From: Candidatus Copromonas faecavium (nom. illeg.)
Lineage (GTDB): Bacteria > Bacillota > Clostridia > Lachnospirales > Lachnospiraceae
Reading direction: 5' to 3'
Assembly (NCBI GenBank): GCA_018712915.1
Contig: DVGC01000029.1
Span: 1 to 64,000, forward strand
DNA: 64,000 nt
The notes under the pieces are model-generated. The model was not told the origin of the DNA. It saw only the letters and a list, made by a program, of their open reading frames with translations, and did not search any database. This document shows positions 5,439 to 64,000 of this stretch, piece by piece. Every line of letters starts with the position of its first letter. The first letter of the stretch is position 1. The position numbers and the translations under genes are program-made.

Positions 5439-7061
5439 ATGAAACTGTTTCGCTACTTCAGTAATTCAAAAATGAAAAGAGAAAATATGGACGAGAGAAA
5501 GAAAACACAGGAGAAAAGCCTTCTTTTAAAATTAAAGCAATATGGGGAATCGGATTTTTATCCCTTCCATATGCCGGGGCATAAAAGGAGGGAGATTCCG
5601 GACGGATTCCCGGATGGGTTTCCAAACCCGTATGAAATCGACATTACAGAAATTGATGGATTTGATAATCTTCATCATGCGGAAGGAATTTTAAAGAGTT
5701 CCATGGAGCAGGCAGCAGAAATCTATGGAGCCGATCAGACGTTTTATCTGGTCAACGGCAGCACCTGCGGAATTTTAAGTGCAATTTTTGGATGTACTTC
5801 CGATGGCGGACGGATTTTGATGGCAAGAAACTGCCATAAATCTGTTTATCATGCCTTGGAACTTCGTCATCTGCAGGCCGAATATCTGTATCCGGAATAC
5901 CTTCCGGAATATGGAATCAACGGAGGCATCCGGCCGGAAGCTGTCAAGAAGGCGCTTGGCGAATCACTTCTGCCGGGAAAGGAAAAAATACAGGCGGTAT
6001 TCCTCACTTCACCGACCTATGAAGGCGTGGTATCAGATATCGAATCCATTGCAAAGATTGTTCATGAAGCAGGGATTCCGCTGATTGTGGATGAGGCCCA
6101 TGGAGCGCATTTCCCTTTTGGAAATAGCTGTTTTCCCAAATCGGCTCTGGAACTGGGAGCAGATGTGGTGATTCAGAGTCTGCATAAAACCCTTCCTTCT
6201 TTTACCCAGACAGCGGTTCTTCATATAAAAGGAACCATGGTCTCTCGGGAACAGATTGCAAAATATCTTGCCATGTTTCAAAGCTCCAGTCCATCGTATC
6301 TGTTTATGGCCGGCATGGAGCGCTGTATTCTGTATATGGCGCAGGGCGGAAGAAAGGAAATGGGACGGTATGGAGAGAGGATGGAGCGGTTTTATCGTTC
6401 TTTAGAGCCTCTGAAGGTTCTGAAACCGGTAAGAAAGCATATCTGCGGACAGGCGGCGGTTTATGATTGGGATTGTTCGAAAATTGTGATTTCCACCAGG
6501 GAAGCTCCGGGGCTGGATGGTCCTGGACTGGGAGATATTCTGCGGCAGCAGTATCATTTGGAAATGGAGATGTGCGCTCCGGAATATCTTGTGGCCATGA
6601 CATCTTTGATGGATACAGAAAAAGGTTTGAAACGGTTGTCCAGGGCACTTTTGGAAATTGATGCTGGATTGGCCGAAAAGCAATTCAGATTGGAACATCA
6701 AATGGCAGAAACGAAAGAAGATGCCCGAGATCTGATAGAAAATAGAAAAGGCGAAGATGATGAGAAAGCATTTAAGCCGGATTCTGCCATGACCATTTCA
6801 GAGGCTGCAGCGCTTCCTGGAGTGTCGGTTCCTCTTAGAAAGGCAGAAGGGCAGATTTCAAAAGAGTACCTTTACTTTTATCCTCCGGGAATCCCTCTTC
6901 TGGCACCCGGAGAACGAATTACCGGAGAGCTTATAGAGAAAGTGAAAACATACCAACGGGCCGGTTTCCCTGTCCAAGGGCTCTCCGACCCGACACTTAC
7001 CACAATAATAACAGTTGCACCAAAAAAGGAGAGTATGGTAAAATGTCCGCGTAAGCAATGA
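5439..7061 (+). CDS. Orn/Lys/Arg decarboxylase-like PLP enzyme (YaaO-type)
   Basis: 540 residues. A fold-type I PLP enzyme of the Orn/Lys/Arg decarboxylase major-domain family. Visible marks are FHMPGHKR near residue 45, NGSTCG for cofactor phosphate contact, VDEAHGAHF with the pyridine-contacting Asp, and QSLHKTLPSFTQ holding the Schiff-base Lys. The C-terminal domain ends with YPPGIPLLAPGE. In Bacillus subtilis the counterpart yaaO heads the tmk-holB-ricT block, as here. Substrate may be arginine, lysine or ornithine. The 5439 ATG has only a weak ribosome site; ATGs at 5472 and 5487 are alternatives. A charged insert near residues 420-450 lengthens it relative to homologues. Confidence 0.9.
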   Translation: MKLFRYFSNSKMKRENMDERKKTQEKSLLLKLKQYGESDFYPFHMPGHKRREIPDGFPDGFPNPYEIDITEIDGFDNLHHAEGILKSSMEQAAEIYGADQTFYLVNGSTCGILSAIFGCTSDGGRILMARNCHKSVYHALELRHLQAEYLYPEYLPEYGINGGIRPEAVKKALGESLLPGKEKIQAVFLTSPTYEGVVSDIESIAKIVHEAGIPLIVDEAHGAHFPFGNSCFPKSALELGADVVIQSLHKTLPSFTQTAVLHIKGTMVSREQIAKYLAMFQSSSPSYLFMAGMERCILYMAQGGRKEMGRYGERMERFYRSLEPLKVLKPVRKHICGQAAVYDWDCSKIVISTREAPGLDGPGLGDILRQQYHLEMEMCAPEYLVAMTSLMDTEKGLKRLSRALLEIDAGLAEKQFRLEHQMAETKEDARDLIENRKGEDDEKAFKPDSAMTISEAAALPGVSVPLRKAEGQISKEYLYFYPPGIPLLAPGERITGELIEKVKTYQRAGFPVQGLSDPTLTTIITVAPKKESMVKCPRKQ

Positions 7062-7067
7062 GCAGGG

Positions 7068-7134
7068 CATTCCTCCCCATACGGCCCCCCTCATCATGCT
7101 TGCATGAATGAGGGGGGCCGTATGGGGAGGAATG
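7068..7134. repeat. 27-bp perfect inverted repeat (long hairpin)
   Basis: The arm 7068-7094 (starting CATTCCTCCCCATACGG) is matched perfectly by its reverse complement at 7108-7134, with a 13-base centre that itself contains CATGCTTGCATG. It starts six bases after the decarboxylase stop. There is no T-run, so it is not a canonical terminator. It directly adjoins the tandem array at 7169. Confidence 0.97.
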
Positions 7135-7136
7135 GC

Positions 7137-7288
7137 GGGCGAATGCCCGCGAACGAGCGGCGAAGCCGCGAGTGCCGCCCTGCGGAGCAGAAGAAGTATC
7201 TGCAAGCCACGAGTACCGCCCTGCGGAGCAGAGAAATGCCCGCAAGGCGCGAGTGCAGCCCTGCGGAGCAGAAGAAGTACCAGCAAAC
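7137..7288. repeat. GC-rich tandem array, about 40-bp units with mini-hairpins
   Basis: Three units start with CGAG at 7169, 7210 and 7250 (41, 40 and about 39 bp), sharing the core GCCCTGCGGAGCAGA. Ahead of them lie GCGGGC-GAAT-GCCCGC and GCGGC-GAA-GCCGC mini-hairpins. Both strands are open in several frames but composition and repetitiveness argue against coding. Together with the hairpin this fills 7062-7405. Confidence 0.9.
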
Positions 7289-7405
7289 CGAGGGAATCAC
7301 ACCATGGTGTAAAGAAACTGCAGGCAGCACGGACACGCCTCTCGAAACAAAAGAAACCATTGATGATACATCTGCGATTCTGACGAATAAAAAGGAATTC
7401 CGCCA

Positions 7406-10785: not shown

Positions 10786-10985
10786 CCGGGAAGAACTATC
10801 CGTAGCGGGAAAAGTTATCAGTATTGGAAAGAACTGTCAGAATCGGAAAGAGCCATCAGTATGAAAAAGAATTATCCGTATCTGGAAGAGCTATCAGCAT
10901 CAGAAAGAATTATCCGTGTCGGAAAGAGTTATCAGTGTGAAAGGATCAGCATCAATAAGAATTTTCAGTACCGAAAAGACATGTA
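10786..10985. repeat. Degenerate tandem repeat, about 19-bp period
   Basis: GGAAAGAAYTATC-like blocks recur near 10789, 10808, 10826, 10845, 10863, 10884, 10902, 10921, 10939 and 10972, i.e. every 18-20 bases, about ten copies. The plus strand is open from 10762 for 74 codons, but every repeat drifts and no ribosome site stands out, so I treat it as non-coding. It fills most of the gap between trmN6 and rsmI. Confidence 0.85.
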
Positions 10986-14303: not shown

Positions 14304-14675
14304 AGAAGGAAAAAGAAGACGGCCGAAGGGCAGCGAACGAGAAAGGTAAAAGGCGAGAAGAGGCAGAAGGCAGAAAAGTAAGCGAATAAAAGGCGGGAAA
14401 AGACAGACAGCAGAAGAACAAGAAAAGGAAAAGGCGAGAAGGAAGAAAAACAAGAGAGGCAAAGGTAAGCAAAGCCGAAAACGCGAAAAAACTGGATTTT
14501 CGTATTTTACATTTTCTTGTCAGTGATTTTACAAAGACAGGGTAGCGGGTACCGGTTGTTTTCAGATAGAATCATCCCATATGAATATTTCCGCAAACTG
14601 TGGTTCCATAAGGTGCGTATGCGTCCGACGGGCAAACGGTGCGGGAAATCAGAGGATGATTTCAGGAGGATGACG
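14304..14675. other. Purine-rich low-complexity spacer
   Basis: 14304-14470 is almost entirely A/G on the plus strand with recurring AGGCGAGAAG, GGCAGAAGGCAGAAAAG and similar words. No gene is supported. 14471-14675 is ordinary sequence holding the ribosome site of the next gene. The plus strand is open from 14517, in frame with the next gene, but shows no start signal before 14670. Confidence 0.6.
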
Positions 14676-16352
14676 ATGAGAATAACTGGAAAAAAAGCGC
14701 TGGCCCTGTCTTTTTGTGTGACGGCGGCTTTGCAGATGGGGGCATTTCCCGTATTGGCACAGGAAGTTTCAATGAGAAAAATTGCCGGATATGAAGCTGG
14801 ACAGTTTCATGTGGACGGCGGTGTAATGGAAATCGTAGCATATAACCGGGCGACAGACTATGCCTATGCTGTAAATGGTCAGACAGGAATGCTGACGGCC
14901 ATTCCTCTCGCCAATCTGACGGACGGAGGTTCTGCAGCAAATCTGCAGGGAACGGATATTGATGTGAAAAGCCTTGTGGAAGGACAGGATTCTTCTTTCG
15001 TTTACGGGGACATGACATCGGTTTCTGTTTCTCCGGACGGAACCCGGCTGGCGGTGGCTCTTCAGGCAGAAGGATATGCAGATTCCGGACGGGCAGCGAT
15101 TTTTGGCTGCAGCAGTGACGGATCCCTTACACTCCGGGGAATTGTAGAAACGGGAGTTCAGCCGGACATGATTGTGTTTGCCACCAATCAGACGGTTCTC
15201 ACGGCTGATGAAGGAGAGCCCAGGGAAGGATACGGGGAAGGAACCGTGGATCCGAGGGGTTCGGTGACGGTGATTGACGCGGATCAGCTGACCGGTACTG
15301 TGACAGGCTTTGATGCGTTTGATTCTGAAGAACAGAGAGCAGCCCTGGTTTCCTCCGGTGTTGTTCTGAAAAAAGGAACCAGTCTGTCTGTTGATCTGGA
15401 GCCGGAATATATCGCCGTTTCTGACGGAAAAGCGTATGTGACCCTGCAGGAGGCCAATGCCATTGCGGTTTTCAATATCACGGGACAGGCGTTTGAGGGA
15501 ATTTATTCCGCGGGCTTTGAAGATTACAGCGTGACTCCGGTGGATATTGACAAGAAGGATGACGGTTATGCAGCGAAAACGTATCCGTCTCTGATGGGAA
15601 TCCGGATGCCCGATGGAATTGCTGCATATTCTGTCAATGGAACCACTTATCTGGTGACAGCCAATGAAGGCGACGGACGGGAATGGGGAGACGAGGATCT
15701 GGGAACCTTCTATCTGAATGAGGACGAAAGAGACTTCGGAGACGGAGATGTTTCGCCCACTGGCGCGATTACGGCAGCCAATTCCGGTTTGAGCGGAAAG
15801 GTGACGTTCTTTGAAAGCGGGGATTATGACGGACTGGACGGAAGGAAGGATTATCTGTTCGGAGGCAGAAGCTTTACTCTTTATCAGGTTTCTGAAACCG
15901 GTATTTCTCCGGTATATTCCAGTGGAGATGCCTTTGAATCCCTGACAGCGTCCGCTCTGCCGGAGTATTATAACAGCTCCAACGATAACGCGGTGCTGGA
16001 TGACCGGTCCGGCAAAAAGGGTCCGGAACCGGAGAGCGTAACGGTAGGCTCTGTGGACGGAAGAACTTACGCGTTTGTGGCACTGGAGCGTACCGGAGGA
16101 ATCATGGCTTATGATGTGACGGATCCGGCGGCGGTTTCCTGCGAAACCTATATTAACACCAGAGATTTTGCTTCCGTCGTAAGTGGGTCGGAAGAATACG
16201 AAGATGGTGAGCTGGATAAGTGGGTGACCGGCGGCGATGTGGCGCCGGAAGGACTGGCCTTCATTCCGGCAGAGGAAAGCCCGACGGGTGAGGCGCTGCT
16301 TCTTGCCGCCTGTGAGGTATCTGGAACCGTTGCTGTCTATCAGGTGCAGTAA
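14676..16352 (+). CDS. Secreted choice-of-anchor I family beta-propeller protein
   Basis: 558 residues from ATG 14676 (AGGAGG six bases upstream). Signal peptide MRITGKKALALSFCVTAALQ with cleavage near VLAQE. The mature protein has the choice-of-anchor I pattern: a YVTN/LVIVD-type beta-propeller with VSPDGTRLAVALQ, a TADEGEPREGYGEG motif, VTANEGDGREWG, and KGPEPESVTVGSVDGRTYAFVALERTGGI near the end, where many family members have the same Glu-Pro-Glu and LER strings. Often annotated as alkaline-phosphatase-like, but no phosphatase active site is seen. No sortase or lipid anchor, so probably released or wall-associated. Confidence 0.88.
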   Translation: MRITGKKALALSFCVTAALQMGAFPVLAQEVSMRKIAGYEAGQFHVDGGVMEIVAYNRATDYAYAVNGQTGMLTAIPLANLTDGGSAANLQGTDIDVKSLVEGQDSSFVYGDMTSVSVSPDGTRLAVALQAEGYADSGRAAIFGCSSDGSLTLRGIVETGVQPDMIVFATNQTVLTADEGEPREGYGEGTVDPRGSVTVIDADQLTGTVTGFDAFDSEEQRAALVSSGVVLKKGTSLSVDLEPEYIAVSDGKAYVTLQEANAIAVFNITGQAFEGIYSAGFEDYSVTPVDIDKKDDGYAAKTYPSLMGIRMPDGIAAYSVNGTTYLVTANEGDGREWGDEDLGTFYLNEDERDFGDGDVSPTGAITAANSGLSGKVTFFESGDYDGLDGRKDYLFGGRSFTLYQVSETGISPVYSSGDAFESLTASALPEYYNSSNDNAVLDDRSGKKGPEPESVTVGSVDGRTYAFVALERTGGIMAYDVTDPAAVSCETYINTRDFASVVSGSEEYEDGELDKWVTGGDVAPEGLAFIPAEESPTGEALLLAACEVSGTVAVYQVQ

Positions 16353-16439
16353 AGGGTCAGATGCAGGAAAGGCCAGGTACAATAATGGGTCAAATTCTGG
16401 AAAAGCCAGGTACAGTAAATGGCCGGATATGGAAAACAC
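16341..16439. repeat. 33-bp tandem repeat that includes the stop codon
   Basis: CAGGTGCAGTAA at 16341, the last three codons and stop of the propeller gene, recurs as CAGGTACAATAA at 16374 and CAGGTACAGTAA at 16407: exact 33-bp spacing. Each unit also carries a GGRTCA / GGAAAA-GCCAGG core; the third fades by 16439. Confidence 0.9.
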
Positions 16440-49938: not shown

Positions 49939-50081
49939 ATTATGGAAATCCTTTCTGCACATGAAGACATCGGGAACCGGTTATTTTGTCCACCAATATC
50001 ACATGAAAAGTATAACACAAACCACCGGATTACCCAAGCGATATTTTTGTTGCATAAAATAGAAAGAGAAATTATAATGGA

Positions 50082-50262
50082 GGAAGAATACCAGCTTTGC
50101 TGGTATTCTTCCGATACGCAAACGAAGCGAAGTTTGCGGTACCCGTCCGATACGCAAACGGAGCAAAGCGGAGTTCACGGTGCCCGTCCGATACGCAAAC
50201 GGAGCAAAGCGGAGTCCACGGTATCCGCCTGATACGTAAACGAAGCGAAGTTTGCGGTATTT
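50082..50262. repeat. Hairpin plus GC-rich tandem array
   Basis: A perfect 14-bp stem (GGAAGAATACCAGC, 50082-50095, with its complement at 50099-50112, TTT loop) is followed by four units beginning at CCGATACG near 50111, 50147, 50188 and 50229 (36, 41 and 41 bp apart). The core is GCAAACGGAGCAAAGCGGAG, varying to a self-pairing CAAACGAAGCGAAGTTTG. With a short AT-rich lead it fills the gap 49939-50306. Minus- and plus-strand frames are open across it but are judged non-coding. Confidence 0.95.
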
Positions 50263-53510: not shown

Positions 53511-53559
53511 AGGATCATTCAATATTTGAAATGCAACGAACAGGATACGACCTTTCATT

Positions 53560-53827
53560 TATCCCTTTTCAGAGACCTGCCGGCTGGTGAGAGGCAGGAA
53601 AGGACATGAGAGGCCATCACCTGCAAGCAGCCCGGGCGAACGGCTTACAAGTAGTCCGAGACGGCAATCCCTCCGTTACAGGGGAACGTATTCATCCGCG
53701 CCGGTGAGGAGAGGTGCAGAGGATACGGACTGAGGGACCGGATGTCCGGTAATTGAAGTGGTAACGCGGAGGAATCATATGCCTTCGTCTTCTGACAGAG
53801 TAATCTGCGGGAGACGGAGGCTTTTTT
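53560..53827 (+). ncRNA. T-box riboswitch leader
   Basis: Stem I opens with AGAGACCTGCCGGCTGGTGA at 53571, including the CTGCC-GGCTGGTGAGA-GGCAG element. Stem III resembles ACGGCAATCCCTCCGT before 53676. The T-box sequence GAAGTGGTAACGCGG is at 53755-53769 (consensus AGGGTGGNACCGCG). A terminator follows: GCCTTCGTCT (53781) pairs with AGACGGAGGC ending at 53821, then six T. Uncharged tRNA would stabilise the antiterminator. The specifier is ambiguous; GAACGGCTTACAAGTAG offers CTT (Leu) or TAC (Tyr). No aminoacyl-tRNA synthetase follows; the first gene is cstA. Confidence 0.88.
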
Positions 53828-54084
53828 GTTAATGAGGAACCTTGCTCCCTGTTCCGTAAAGCACTCCGCAGGCTGCGCACCCGCGTGAAAGGGAAATGAG
53901 CCGTTGGAGCGGCCGCGCACAGAGCGGCAATGCGGCTGGTTTTTCCGGCACAAGGGATAGAACCGGCAGAGCTGCATGAGTGCCGGGCCAAAGAAGGAAT
54001 TTCCTTTCGCGGTGCTTCTTATGGGTGACCGGACCGTCAGGAATTGAAGAAGATGAAAAATCTATACTAAAGGAGTGGAGAAGT
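53828..54084 (+). other. Leader between T-box terminator and cstA
   Basis: About 255 bases with no gene and no second terminator recognised. It ends with AGGAGTGGAG, the ribosome site of cstA. A small GC-rich hairpin-prone section lies near 53900-53935. Confidence 0.5.
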
Positions 54085-62532: not shown

Positions 62533-63054
62533 ATGCCGGTGAAAATATCGTTGGATGAAAAATACATGAAGGAAGCGATTCGGCAGGCCAGAAAGGCGGC
62601 TGCATTAAAGGAAGTTCCCATTGGCTGCGTGATCGTTCATGAGGGAAAAATAATTGGCCGCGGATATAACAGGCGTACCACAGACGGCAATGTCCTGGCG
62701 CATGCGGAGATTCTGGCAATTCGGAAAGCCTGCCGGGCCATGGGGGACTGGAGGCTGGAAGAATGTACCATGTATGTGACGCTGGAACCCTGCCCGATGT
62801 GTGCCGGGGCCATTGTTCAGGCCAGGATTCCCCGGGTGGTCATTGGATGTATGAATCCCAAGGCCGGCTGTGCCGGATCAGTTTTGGATTTGCTTCATGA
62901 AAAGGGATTTAACCACCAGGTGGAAACGGAAATTGGATTGTGTGGAGAGGAATGCTCCTCCATGCTGAAAAATTTTTTTAGGGAACTGAGAGCAGAAGGG
63001 AAACGAAGAAAAGAAGAAAAAGGAAAAGAAGGGGAGGAAAAAGAGGGAGAGTAA
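62533..63054 (+). CDS. tadA: tRNA-specific adenosine deaminase
   Basis: 173 residues. Zinc deaminase that converts A34 to inosine in tRNA-Arg(ACG). Zinc site: HAEILAIRKA (His and catalytic Glu) and EPCPMCAGAIVQARI (two Cys). DYMKEAIRQA-like N-terminus (KYMKEAIRQARKAAALKEVP). The C-terminal 20 residues are a Lys/Glu-rich run (EEKGKEGEEKEGE) that continues the purine-rich spacer and is not part of the fold. GGAAAA before the ATG is a weak ribosome site. Confidence 0.95.
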   Translation: MPVKISLDEKYMKEAIRQARKAAALKEVPIGCVIVHEGKIIGRGYNRRTTDGNVLAHAEILAIRKACRAMGDWRLEECTMYVTLEPCPMCAGAIVQARIPRVVIGCMNPKAGCAGSVLDLLHEKGFNHQVETEIGLCGEECSSMLKNFFRELRAEGKRRKEEKGKEGEEKEGE

Positions 63055-63125
63055 AAAAAGAGAGGAAAAGAAGAGGGAAAAGAAAAAGAGCGAAAAGAAG
63101 AAAAGGATAACGGCGAGGAGGAAAC
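63055..63125. other. Purine-only spacer
   Basis: Almost entirely A and G on the plus strand, ending in the GAGGAGG ribosome site of the lipoprotein. Confidence 0.6.
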
Positions 63126-64000
63126 ATGAAAAAGAGGAGAAATAAAATAGGAAGATTTCTGGCGGGAACAGTTCTTCTGGCGCTTGTGAGTGCGGGAATG
63201 ACCGGCTGCGCGCAGGGAGAGAGCGGAAACAGTGAGGAAGCGGCCAGTATTGGCGGAAGCAATGAGGAAGCGACCAGCATTGGCGGAAGCAATGAGGAAG
63301 CGACCAGCATTGGCGGAAGTGATGAGGAAGCAGTCAGCATTGGTGGAAGCGATGAAGAGGCGGCCGGCATTGGCGGCGGCAGTGGGGAGGTTGTCAGCGT
63401 TATCGGAGGAGCCGATGGACCCACTTCTATTTTTGTTGCGGGAAAAACGGGGGATGAGGAAGGAACACCGGCCGCACAGCTGGATATAACCCAGGCAAAA
63501 GGGGAAGACTTTGGAGGAGCGGCTGTTCTGGATTATGTAAGTGCGGATAAAATTTCGTTTCACTGCCCGCTGGGATATATGGTATTTCAGGCGGATGAGT
63601 CAGGGAAGCTTGCTCCGGTACTGGGAGTCACGTTTGAAGAGGCCGGAGGCCTGGTGATGGAAGGAGACGGAAGGACTGCGGTTCTGGGAGGCGATACGGG
63701 AGCCATGGTGATTCCCGGGGCATATCAGGAAAGCGGAGCGGAAACGCTTTATGTTTTCGAGGAAGAAAGCGGGCAGATATTCGAATCTCCCATGACGGAA
63801 GATATGATGGAAATGATAAAAGAAGTCGAAGCGCAGAAGCCATCGGTTTCCGAAGAAGTCAGAGGGCAGCTGGAAGAAGCGGTGGATGAGCAGACGGGCA
63901 GCCGGATTCTGGTCGATCCGGTTGCGGTTCCGGAATTTGATGCCAATGTGTACGGATTTCTGGCGGCTGACGGAGAGCGGCTGGAGGATATCTGGTATGG
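63126..64000 (+). CDS. Repeat-bearing lipoprotein, 3' end outside window
   Basis: Frame open from ATG 63126 (GAGGAGG upstream) to the window end, over 291 codons. Signal peptide MKKRRNKIGRFLAGTVLLAL then SAGMTGC lipobox (Cys28). Next come five copies of a 10-residue repeat SIGGSNEEAT (about 36-88), running into VVSVIGGADGPTSIFVAGK, a string that matches the start of the decarboxylase beta-subunit (OadB) conserved core. After that, a soluble region of about 180 residues including DFGGAAVLDYVSADKISFHC. No OadB membrane helices seen in the visible part. Function unknown. Confidence 0.8.
   Translation, partial: MKKRRNKIGRFLAGTVLLALVSAGMTGCAQGESGNSEEAASIGGSNEEATSIGGSNEEATSIGGSDEEAVSIGGSDEEAAGIGGGSGEVVSVIGGADGPTSIFVAGKTGDEEGTPAAQLDITQAKGEDFGGAAVLDYVSADKISFHCPLGYMVFQADESGKLAPVLGVTFEEAGGLVMEGDGRTAVLGGDTGAMVIPGAYQESGAETLYVFEEESGQIFESPMTEDMMEMIKEVEAQKPSVSEEVRGQLEEAVDEQTGSRILVDPVAVPEFDANVYGFLAADGERLEDIWY
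63228..63377. repeat. 30-bp tandem repeat inside the lipoprotein gene
   Basis: Units reading AGCAATGAGGAAGCGACCAG plus CATTGGCGGA recur every 30 bases from about 63228 to 63377, in frame, five copies; copies two and three are nearly identical, so the array is young. Confidence 0.93.

Follow-up and report, generated by a model that had tools for sequence, protein, structure and literature searches.

The closest described relative of the element reported here is Clostridiales-1 (RF01699), which Weinberg et al. 2010 (PMC2864571) scored as probably an RNA and 'probably not' cis-regulatory, with no function assigned. Our literature search found RF01699 named as a structured RNA only in that 2010 description (PMC2864571), and in the years since 2010 no function has been described for this parent family. 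For other small bacterial repeats, cleavage by RNase III (Correia) and by RNase E (ERIC) is reported (PMC3049150, PMC12306157), and PMC12306157 also describes REP sequences near stop codons that can stall ribosomes. We compare with these systems a locus in 64,000 nucleotides of Candidatus Copromonas faecavium DNA, the whole analysed stretch being referred to below as the window.

Layout and fold of the locus

An earlier note on the window had pointed to a 27-bp perfect inverted repeat starting six bases after a stop codon and followed by mini-hairpins and three 40-bp units, and each of these parts was located. The 27-nt arms lie at 7068-7094 and 7108-7134 around a spacer of 13 nt, the first arm beginning 6 bases past the TGA (7059-7061) of ORF 5439-7061; the hairpin they form (7068-7134) is the longest in the window, the runner-up being one of 14 bp at 50082-50112. 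What that note missed is the plus-strand order of promoter, hairpin, array and gene, as well as the larger multi-copy element around the hairpin. On this strand an extended -10 box, TGGTAAAAT (7036-7044), assigned from sequence to a promoter of gmk and holB, overlaps the 3' end of a gene for an Orn/Lys/Arg decarboxylase (PF01276, 5439-7061, plus strand), whose last codons run through the -10 box into the head of the element. A simple scan found no TTGACA-type -35 for this promoter. The co-oriented gene downstream encodes guanylate kinase (gmk; PF00625, 7406-7981, plus strand), and is followed by that for DNA polymerase III delta' (holB).

The core of the element spans about 136 nt (7050-7185, plus strand) and is best read as a four-way-junction structured RNA of a divergent Clostridiales-1 type, matching our own model R1 (see below) at 123.8 bits. 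RNA 7051-7195 has a folding energy of -101.5 kcal/mol, with z = -10.9, so that the structure is not due to chance. From its 5' end the plus-strand core comprises a conserved head, AAGCAATGAGCAGGG (7053-7067), which takes in TGA 7059-7061 and GCAGGG (7062-7067), the 5' strand of closing stem P1; P2 (7068-7134), the 27-bp perfect hairpin, copy-specific in sequence except for a tip, UCAUGCUUGCAUGA, that is invariant in 13 copies; P3 (7135-7150), the mini-hairpin GCGGGC-GAAT-GCCCGC; P4 (7154-7174), here reduced to CGAGCGGCGAAGCCGCGAGTG where other copies have GAGCGAGATGGAGCGAAGCGGAATCGAGC; and P1' (CCCTGC, 7178-7183), the 3' strand of the closing stem. The second of the two mini-hairpins 3' of P2 is GCGGC-GAA-GCCGC. 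P1' is repeated at 7219 and 7259, and each repeat could alternatively form a small hairpin, CTGC-GGA-GCAG. These repeats belong to a tandem array (7163-7290, plus strand), delimited by TRF and by the unit cores, of about three units of 40-41 bp that each carry the 3' end of P4 together with P1'; the three units have in common the core CCCTGCGGAGCAG (7178-7190, 7219-7231 and 7259-7271).

Two other identities for parts of the locus were discarded. The array could be taken as coding sequence, but the stems change freely in copies and relatives and the overlapping ORFs are not kept in either, and its coding potential was rejected on these grounds. The miRNA families that matched the hairpin in a permissive scan would fit any long perfect hairpin.

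The window holds further repeats and one further structured leader. Purine-rich tandem arrays lie at 10791-10942, 14336-14448 and 16341-16419 (periods of about 19/38, 40 and 33 bp), the first two intergenic, and none resembles the element in sequence. Near the start of a CDS with a lipoprotein-like signal, five in-frame 30-bp repeats encode GSNEEAASI-type units (63223-63376), preceded by a purine-rich repeat at 63008-63106. A T-box leader (Rfam RF00230, 103.9 bits) occupies 53527-53795, upstream of an ORF at 53980.

Relation to Clostridiales-1 and copies across genomes

Rfam gives no match at the 7068 locus at gathering score, which for RF01699 is 48 bits. With a relaxed threshold RF01699 aligns with copies of the element over its full length (model positions 1-166, P1-P4), at 28.8 bits in one (E = 0.0066 in 15 kb; E = 0.00015 on a short stretch) and at 25.3 bits in another. 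No copy in the search of the window's own genome (G000) attained the cut-off and, RF01699 being silent at genome scale there, we built our own model, R1, from an alignment (A1) of 13 copies. Among nine distant R1 loci examined, three are matched by RF01699, the best at 44.3 bits, still below 48; the same relative scores 108.7 bits by R1. Of 246 genomes from the order, 40 contain RF01699 itself, with up to 46 copies in one relative. At one orthologous response-regulator promoter the element is of R1 type here and canonical Clostridiales-1 (123.8 bits) in a congener. Given the full-length matches below the cut-off and this swap of types at a single promoter, we regard the element as a probable divergent sister lineage of Clostridiales-1 and not as a formal member. 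The two have in common the four-way layout, the full-length match, multiple copies in Lachnospirales, a long P2 of variable sequence whose tip, UGCUUGCA, is conserved, and a P4 core of GGAG/CGGA; they differ in that the element scores only 25-44 bits (below 48) and has P3 reduced to a simple hairpin. Within Clostridiales-1 proper, one genome (G110, loci L162-L169) carries near-identical canonical copies of 130-150 bits, in either orientation and mostly TA-flanked on both sides, which look like a recently spread subfamily.

The own genome (2.56 Mb in 64 contigs, from the genus of Ca. Copromonas, Lachnospiraceae) yielded further copies of the element when searched with the locus. The head pattern GTAAGCAATGAGCAGGG occurs there in 22 places, about a dozen of which proved on reading to be true copies, and the only named genome with a match to the head-plus-tip pattern is that of Ca. 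Copromonas avistercoris (G246), of the same genus as the window. The head, the invariant hairpin tip TCATGCTTGCATGA, P3 (GCGUGCGAAUGCACGC) and P4 (GAGCGAGAUGGAGCGAAGCGGAAUCGAGC) are common to the copies; each has its own version of the long stem P2. A genome search for unit and arm, as the earlier note had proposed, gave a divided answer: neither the 40-bp array of the 7068 locus nor the P2 arm, a possible guide or target, has a second match within the own genome, but the element containing the hairpin is multi-copy, and the single-copy array is itself noncoding and part of that repeated element.

RNAalifold applied to the 13 copies returned a four-way junction with four stems and 44 pairs, 25 of which show compensatory changes on both sides. 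Covariation scores 0.456; shuffling lowers this to 0.174, with 0 of 500 shuffles attaining 0.456, and sliding the partner strand to at most 0.13. Read on the sense strand, G-U cells outnumber A-C cells by 31 to 7 (cells that are not independent of one another); this excess points to RNA-level pairing of the sense RNA, and supports, while not proving, a pairing constraint that acts on it.

R1 finds 16 matches in the own genome and 12 in the congener G246. Among the 16, 11 score 124-157 bits, and a divergent copy scores 87 bits. At E <= 1e-4 it is present in 92 of 200 Lachnospiraceae genomes, sampled one per genus, with as many as about 15 scored copies in a single genome. Close to half of the genera sampled from this dominant gut family carry a structured RNA that the current Rfam model largely misses. 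That the hairpin and array represent a class of element, as the earlier note proposed, is therefore borne out for 7068 by the 11 strong copies and the divergent one, by the 92 of 200 genera, and by presence and absence between congeners.

The same cannot be said of 50082, which the note had named as a second member. The architectural likeness does hold: a candidate kin locus of similar plan (50073-50250, plus strand) has TATAAT at 50073-50078, the 14-bp hairpin at 50082-50112 and an array of 41-bp units at 50125-50250, upstream of a co-oriented gene for a trypsin-like/PDZ protease (start 50307), and so repeats the plus-strand order of promoter -10, hairpin, array and co-oriented gene seen at 7068. 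R1 gives no match at the 50082 locus, which is single-copy, and we rejected it as an R1 copy. Nevertheless the P4 core GGAGCGAAGCGGA occurs twice in its array, each time with one mismatch; the window has no other such match (0.13 expected; 0 of 100 shuffles with two), and the 50082 array likely shares a module with the element. The congener G246 has at the corresponding place the leader TATAATGGAGAAAGAATATCAG without hairpin and array, and the stretch inserted at 50082 opens with the reverse complement of that leader, which is what template switching would produce.

Gain, loss and origin of copies

The gmk promoters of G246 (TTTGATACAAT) and of another genome, G265 (TATGATACAAT), lack the element at the equivalent place. 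In G246 the site carries GCAGGGCCTGCGGAG right past the -10 box, which resembles the two P1 strands joined, and we interpret it as the scar of a deletion. For four other copies in the own genome (at a GH25 gene on C53, and on C23, C32 and C12:15888) the corresponding gene of G246 has a -10 box and a short leader. The promoter sequence of the GH25 gene is recognisably common to both genomes, and since the promoter is thus present in element-free orthologues, it belongs to the host gene. Other sites are kept in both species, with stems that have diverged yet remain paired (G000:C12:8977 and G246:C124, where P2 is identical at 41 of 61 positions). In another genus, sister species differ in having a complete element, a reduced one or none at their speE junction. 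A check of target sites shows element-free orthologous leaders, with the scar-like G246 gmk site among them. As for the mobility that the earlier note had considered, gain and loss do occur and suggest it, but at least one apparently empty site has the look of a deletion scar.

The speE gap has an unrelated occupant as well: in the genus of G150, loci L224 and L225 have a different repeat (CCCTCATCCGCCCTACGGGCACCTTCTCCCC...) where sister species have Clostridiales-1, and the gap resembles a hot spot.

Such a record is also what might be left by a small repeat, selfish and non-autonomous in the manner of MITEs or BOX, whose insertions after promoters, terminators and stop codons do little harm and whose fold would serve its mobility and not the host. 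The reading we prefer has its main rival in such a selfish element, given a strong bias in placement. It would account for the multiple copies, for presence and absence between congeners at at least four orthologous promoters and within one genus at the speE junction, for a modular layout with tandem duplications as in BOX (PMC3049150), and for the homogeneous, TA-flanked copies of G110 in either orientation. Stems at orthologous sites are rebuilt and not decaying, however, which is not what such a repeat would predict.

Duplications of the 3' module occur also at G000:C12:8977, G246:C124, G041:C6:152116 and L235, and by comparison of these sites it is such duplications that make the tandem array. 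PMC8794818 presents template switching as creator and keeper of RNA hairpins, and stems that are copy-specific yet perfect are best explained by template-switch mutations in which one arm would be templated by the other. The orthologous sites at which stems were rebuilt may serve as a bacterial test case for template switching as a process that makes and keeps RNA hairpins.

A separate arrangement was seen on G000:C53, C16 and C32 (L005 1390-1520, L016 and L019), where, upstream of the element, the host -10 to +1 region is directly followed by an inverted copy of itself (GGTATAATGTCCGC-AGA-GCGGACATTATACC; in C32 ..GACCAC-AAA-GTGGTC..). Between the inverted promoter copy and the element stand the hairpin modules TTTGTGCGTTCACCGCACAAATCCGGGCGCA and CATACTATGGCCGAAGGCCATGGTATAATG, which elsewhere stand 3' of the element.

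Placement, function and comparison with known repeats

For the counts of genomic context, genes were called with a simple codon model and -10 boxes by consensus match. The element and the gene after it have the same orientation in 36 of 40 cases drawn from 43 R1 matches, and in 43 of 56 RF01699 copies, most exceptions being from G110; 24 of 44 co-oriented genes upstream of RF01699 copies end between -10 and +3 nt from the 5' end of the element. In the window's genus a -10 box precedes, by no more than 18 nt, every one of the 13 copies that are not stop-adjacent; control windows in the same flanks lead one to expect 1.8. An independent set of 40 R1 matches from 40 other genera, none used in building R1, repeats this pattern: 30 of 36 have a co-oriented gene downstream, 16 of the 40 start at the stop codon of the gene before them, and a -10 box precedes 13 of the 24 non-stop copies (2.2 expected). 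Particular junctions recur across genera, after rpsI, tuf and rubrerythrin (the last also here) and between the V-ATPase genes for subunits B and D. Sense placement right after -10 boxes or stop codons fits the role in transcription punctuation that the earlier note had suggested; the nucleoid site that it named as another option found no support.

There is a third kind of placement among canonical RF01699 copies, many of which, when not at stop codons, start right past the apparent T-run of the preceding gene's intrinsic terminator (for example G102:C37, G151:C46, G074:C4 and G182:C80). Outward extension of P1 into host flanks is in weak excess (mean 1.5 against 0.9 nt) and was dropped as a rule for that reason, although single cases are striking (the G281 speE junction).

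Insertion favouring transcription starts and gene ends could yield much of the same pattern, and so the selfish repeat bears on these counts too. It fits less well with the strong sense bias, with the prevalence of G-U over A-C pairs on the sense strand, and with the occupation of the same junctions in several genera; BOX, RUP and SPRITE, moreover, are enriched between convergent genes instead (PMC3049150). We consider it possible but on the unlikely side.

A -10 box directly upstream of most copies in the window's genus might instead mark stand-alone genes for trans-acting sRNAs with their own promoters, as the Rfam type 'Gene; sRNA' implies, and the copy-unique arms could then be target-specific. 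This seems very improbable: the promoter is that of the host gene, common to element-free orthologues, many copies adjoin stop codons without any promoter, the P2 arm matches nothing else in the genome, and in none of the 11 leader copies of the own genome does a terminator-like hairpin stand between element and start codon, which would leave each without a terminator of its own before the next gene. The absence of a terminator 3' of the element in all 11 copies argues equally against a cis-regulatory sensing leader, in which a ligand, a protein or the passage of ribosomes would attenuate downstream transcription or translation. Leader position and co-orientation are as such a leader would have them, P1' has a choice between pairing with P1 and folding into the CTGC-GGA-GCAG hairpin, and P2 is terminator-like in some leaders, with a T-tract in its 3' arm in 10 of 29 leader copies that would suit an attenuator too; but the downstream genes are functionally unrelated, and P2, the largest part of the element, has no conserved sequence except at its tip. 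We judge a sensing leader improbable.

We hypothesize instead, giving the idea about an even chance, that this is a sense-strand RNA element that opens untranslated stretches of mRNA and influences in cis what becomes of the transcript. Copy number, the compensated four-way fold, sense orientation, placement at -10 boxes and stop codons, and gain and loss are each established from sequence, and from them we infer a cis action on mRNA fate. The element would be transcribed in sense, here from just behind the gmk/holB promoter and through the stop codon of the decarboxylase gene, and its RNA would fold on leaving RNA polymerase in promoter copies or right behind the terminating ribosome in stop copies. 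A perfect duplex of about 26 bp is a textbook substrate of RNase III, and a structured start or end of an RNA alters its decay. An RNase III-type cleavage of the ~26-bp P2 duplex could thus set an mRNA boundary, with the structured end shielding the downstream message. At the ends of transcription units P2 may often double as an intrinsic-terminator-like hairpin: its 3' arm has a T-tract in 11 of 15 stop copies without a near co-oriented gene, against 5 of 17 stop copies with one. Against this cis reading count the 'probably not' cis-regulatory score of Clostridiales-1 (PMC2864571) and the closely similar canonical copies that G110 carries in both orientations. The placement rule (first nucleotides past a -10 box or stop codon, in sense) leads to specific testable predictions. 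It is tempting, if rather doubtful, to extend the cis reading to a general Lachnospiraceae device that would mark the first nucleotides of untranslated RNA and protect ribosome-free RNA from early termination or decay whatever gene is served, its stems regenerated by template switching and only one branch of it caught by Rfam.

Several small repeat systems resemble the element in part. Correia elements of Neisseria likewise have inverted repeats, and according to PMC3049150 they are transcribed, cleaved by RNase III and can bring promoters; there is no kinship with them, and cleavage of the element by RNase III is predicted from its ~26-bp duplex. REP/BIME sequences of enterobacteria also often start near a stop codon, REP palindromes lying within 15 nt of it (PMC12306157 and the study it cites). 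Their consensus bears no likeness to the element by eye, and unlike REP, a short hairpin of conserved sequence, the element is a four-way junction with variable stems that stands at promoters as well. With BOX of Streptococcus pneumoniae (PMC3049150), to which no sequence or fold kinship is evident, it has in common that it is a small modular intergenic repeat with a strong fold when transcribed and an internal tandem module in variable number, and BOX affects downstream genes. BOX, however, is enriched between convergent genes (PMC3049150), whereas the element lies in sense past -10 boxes and stop codons, with stems that covary.
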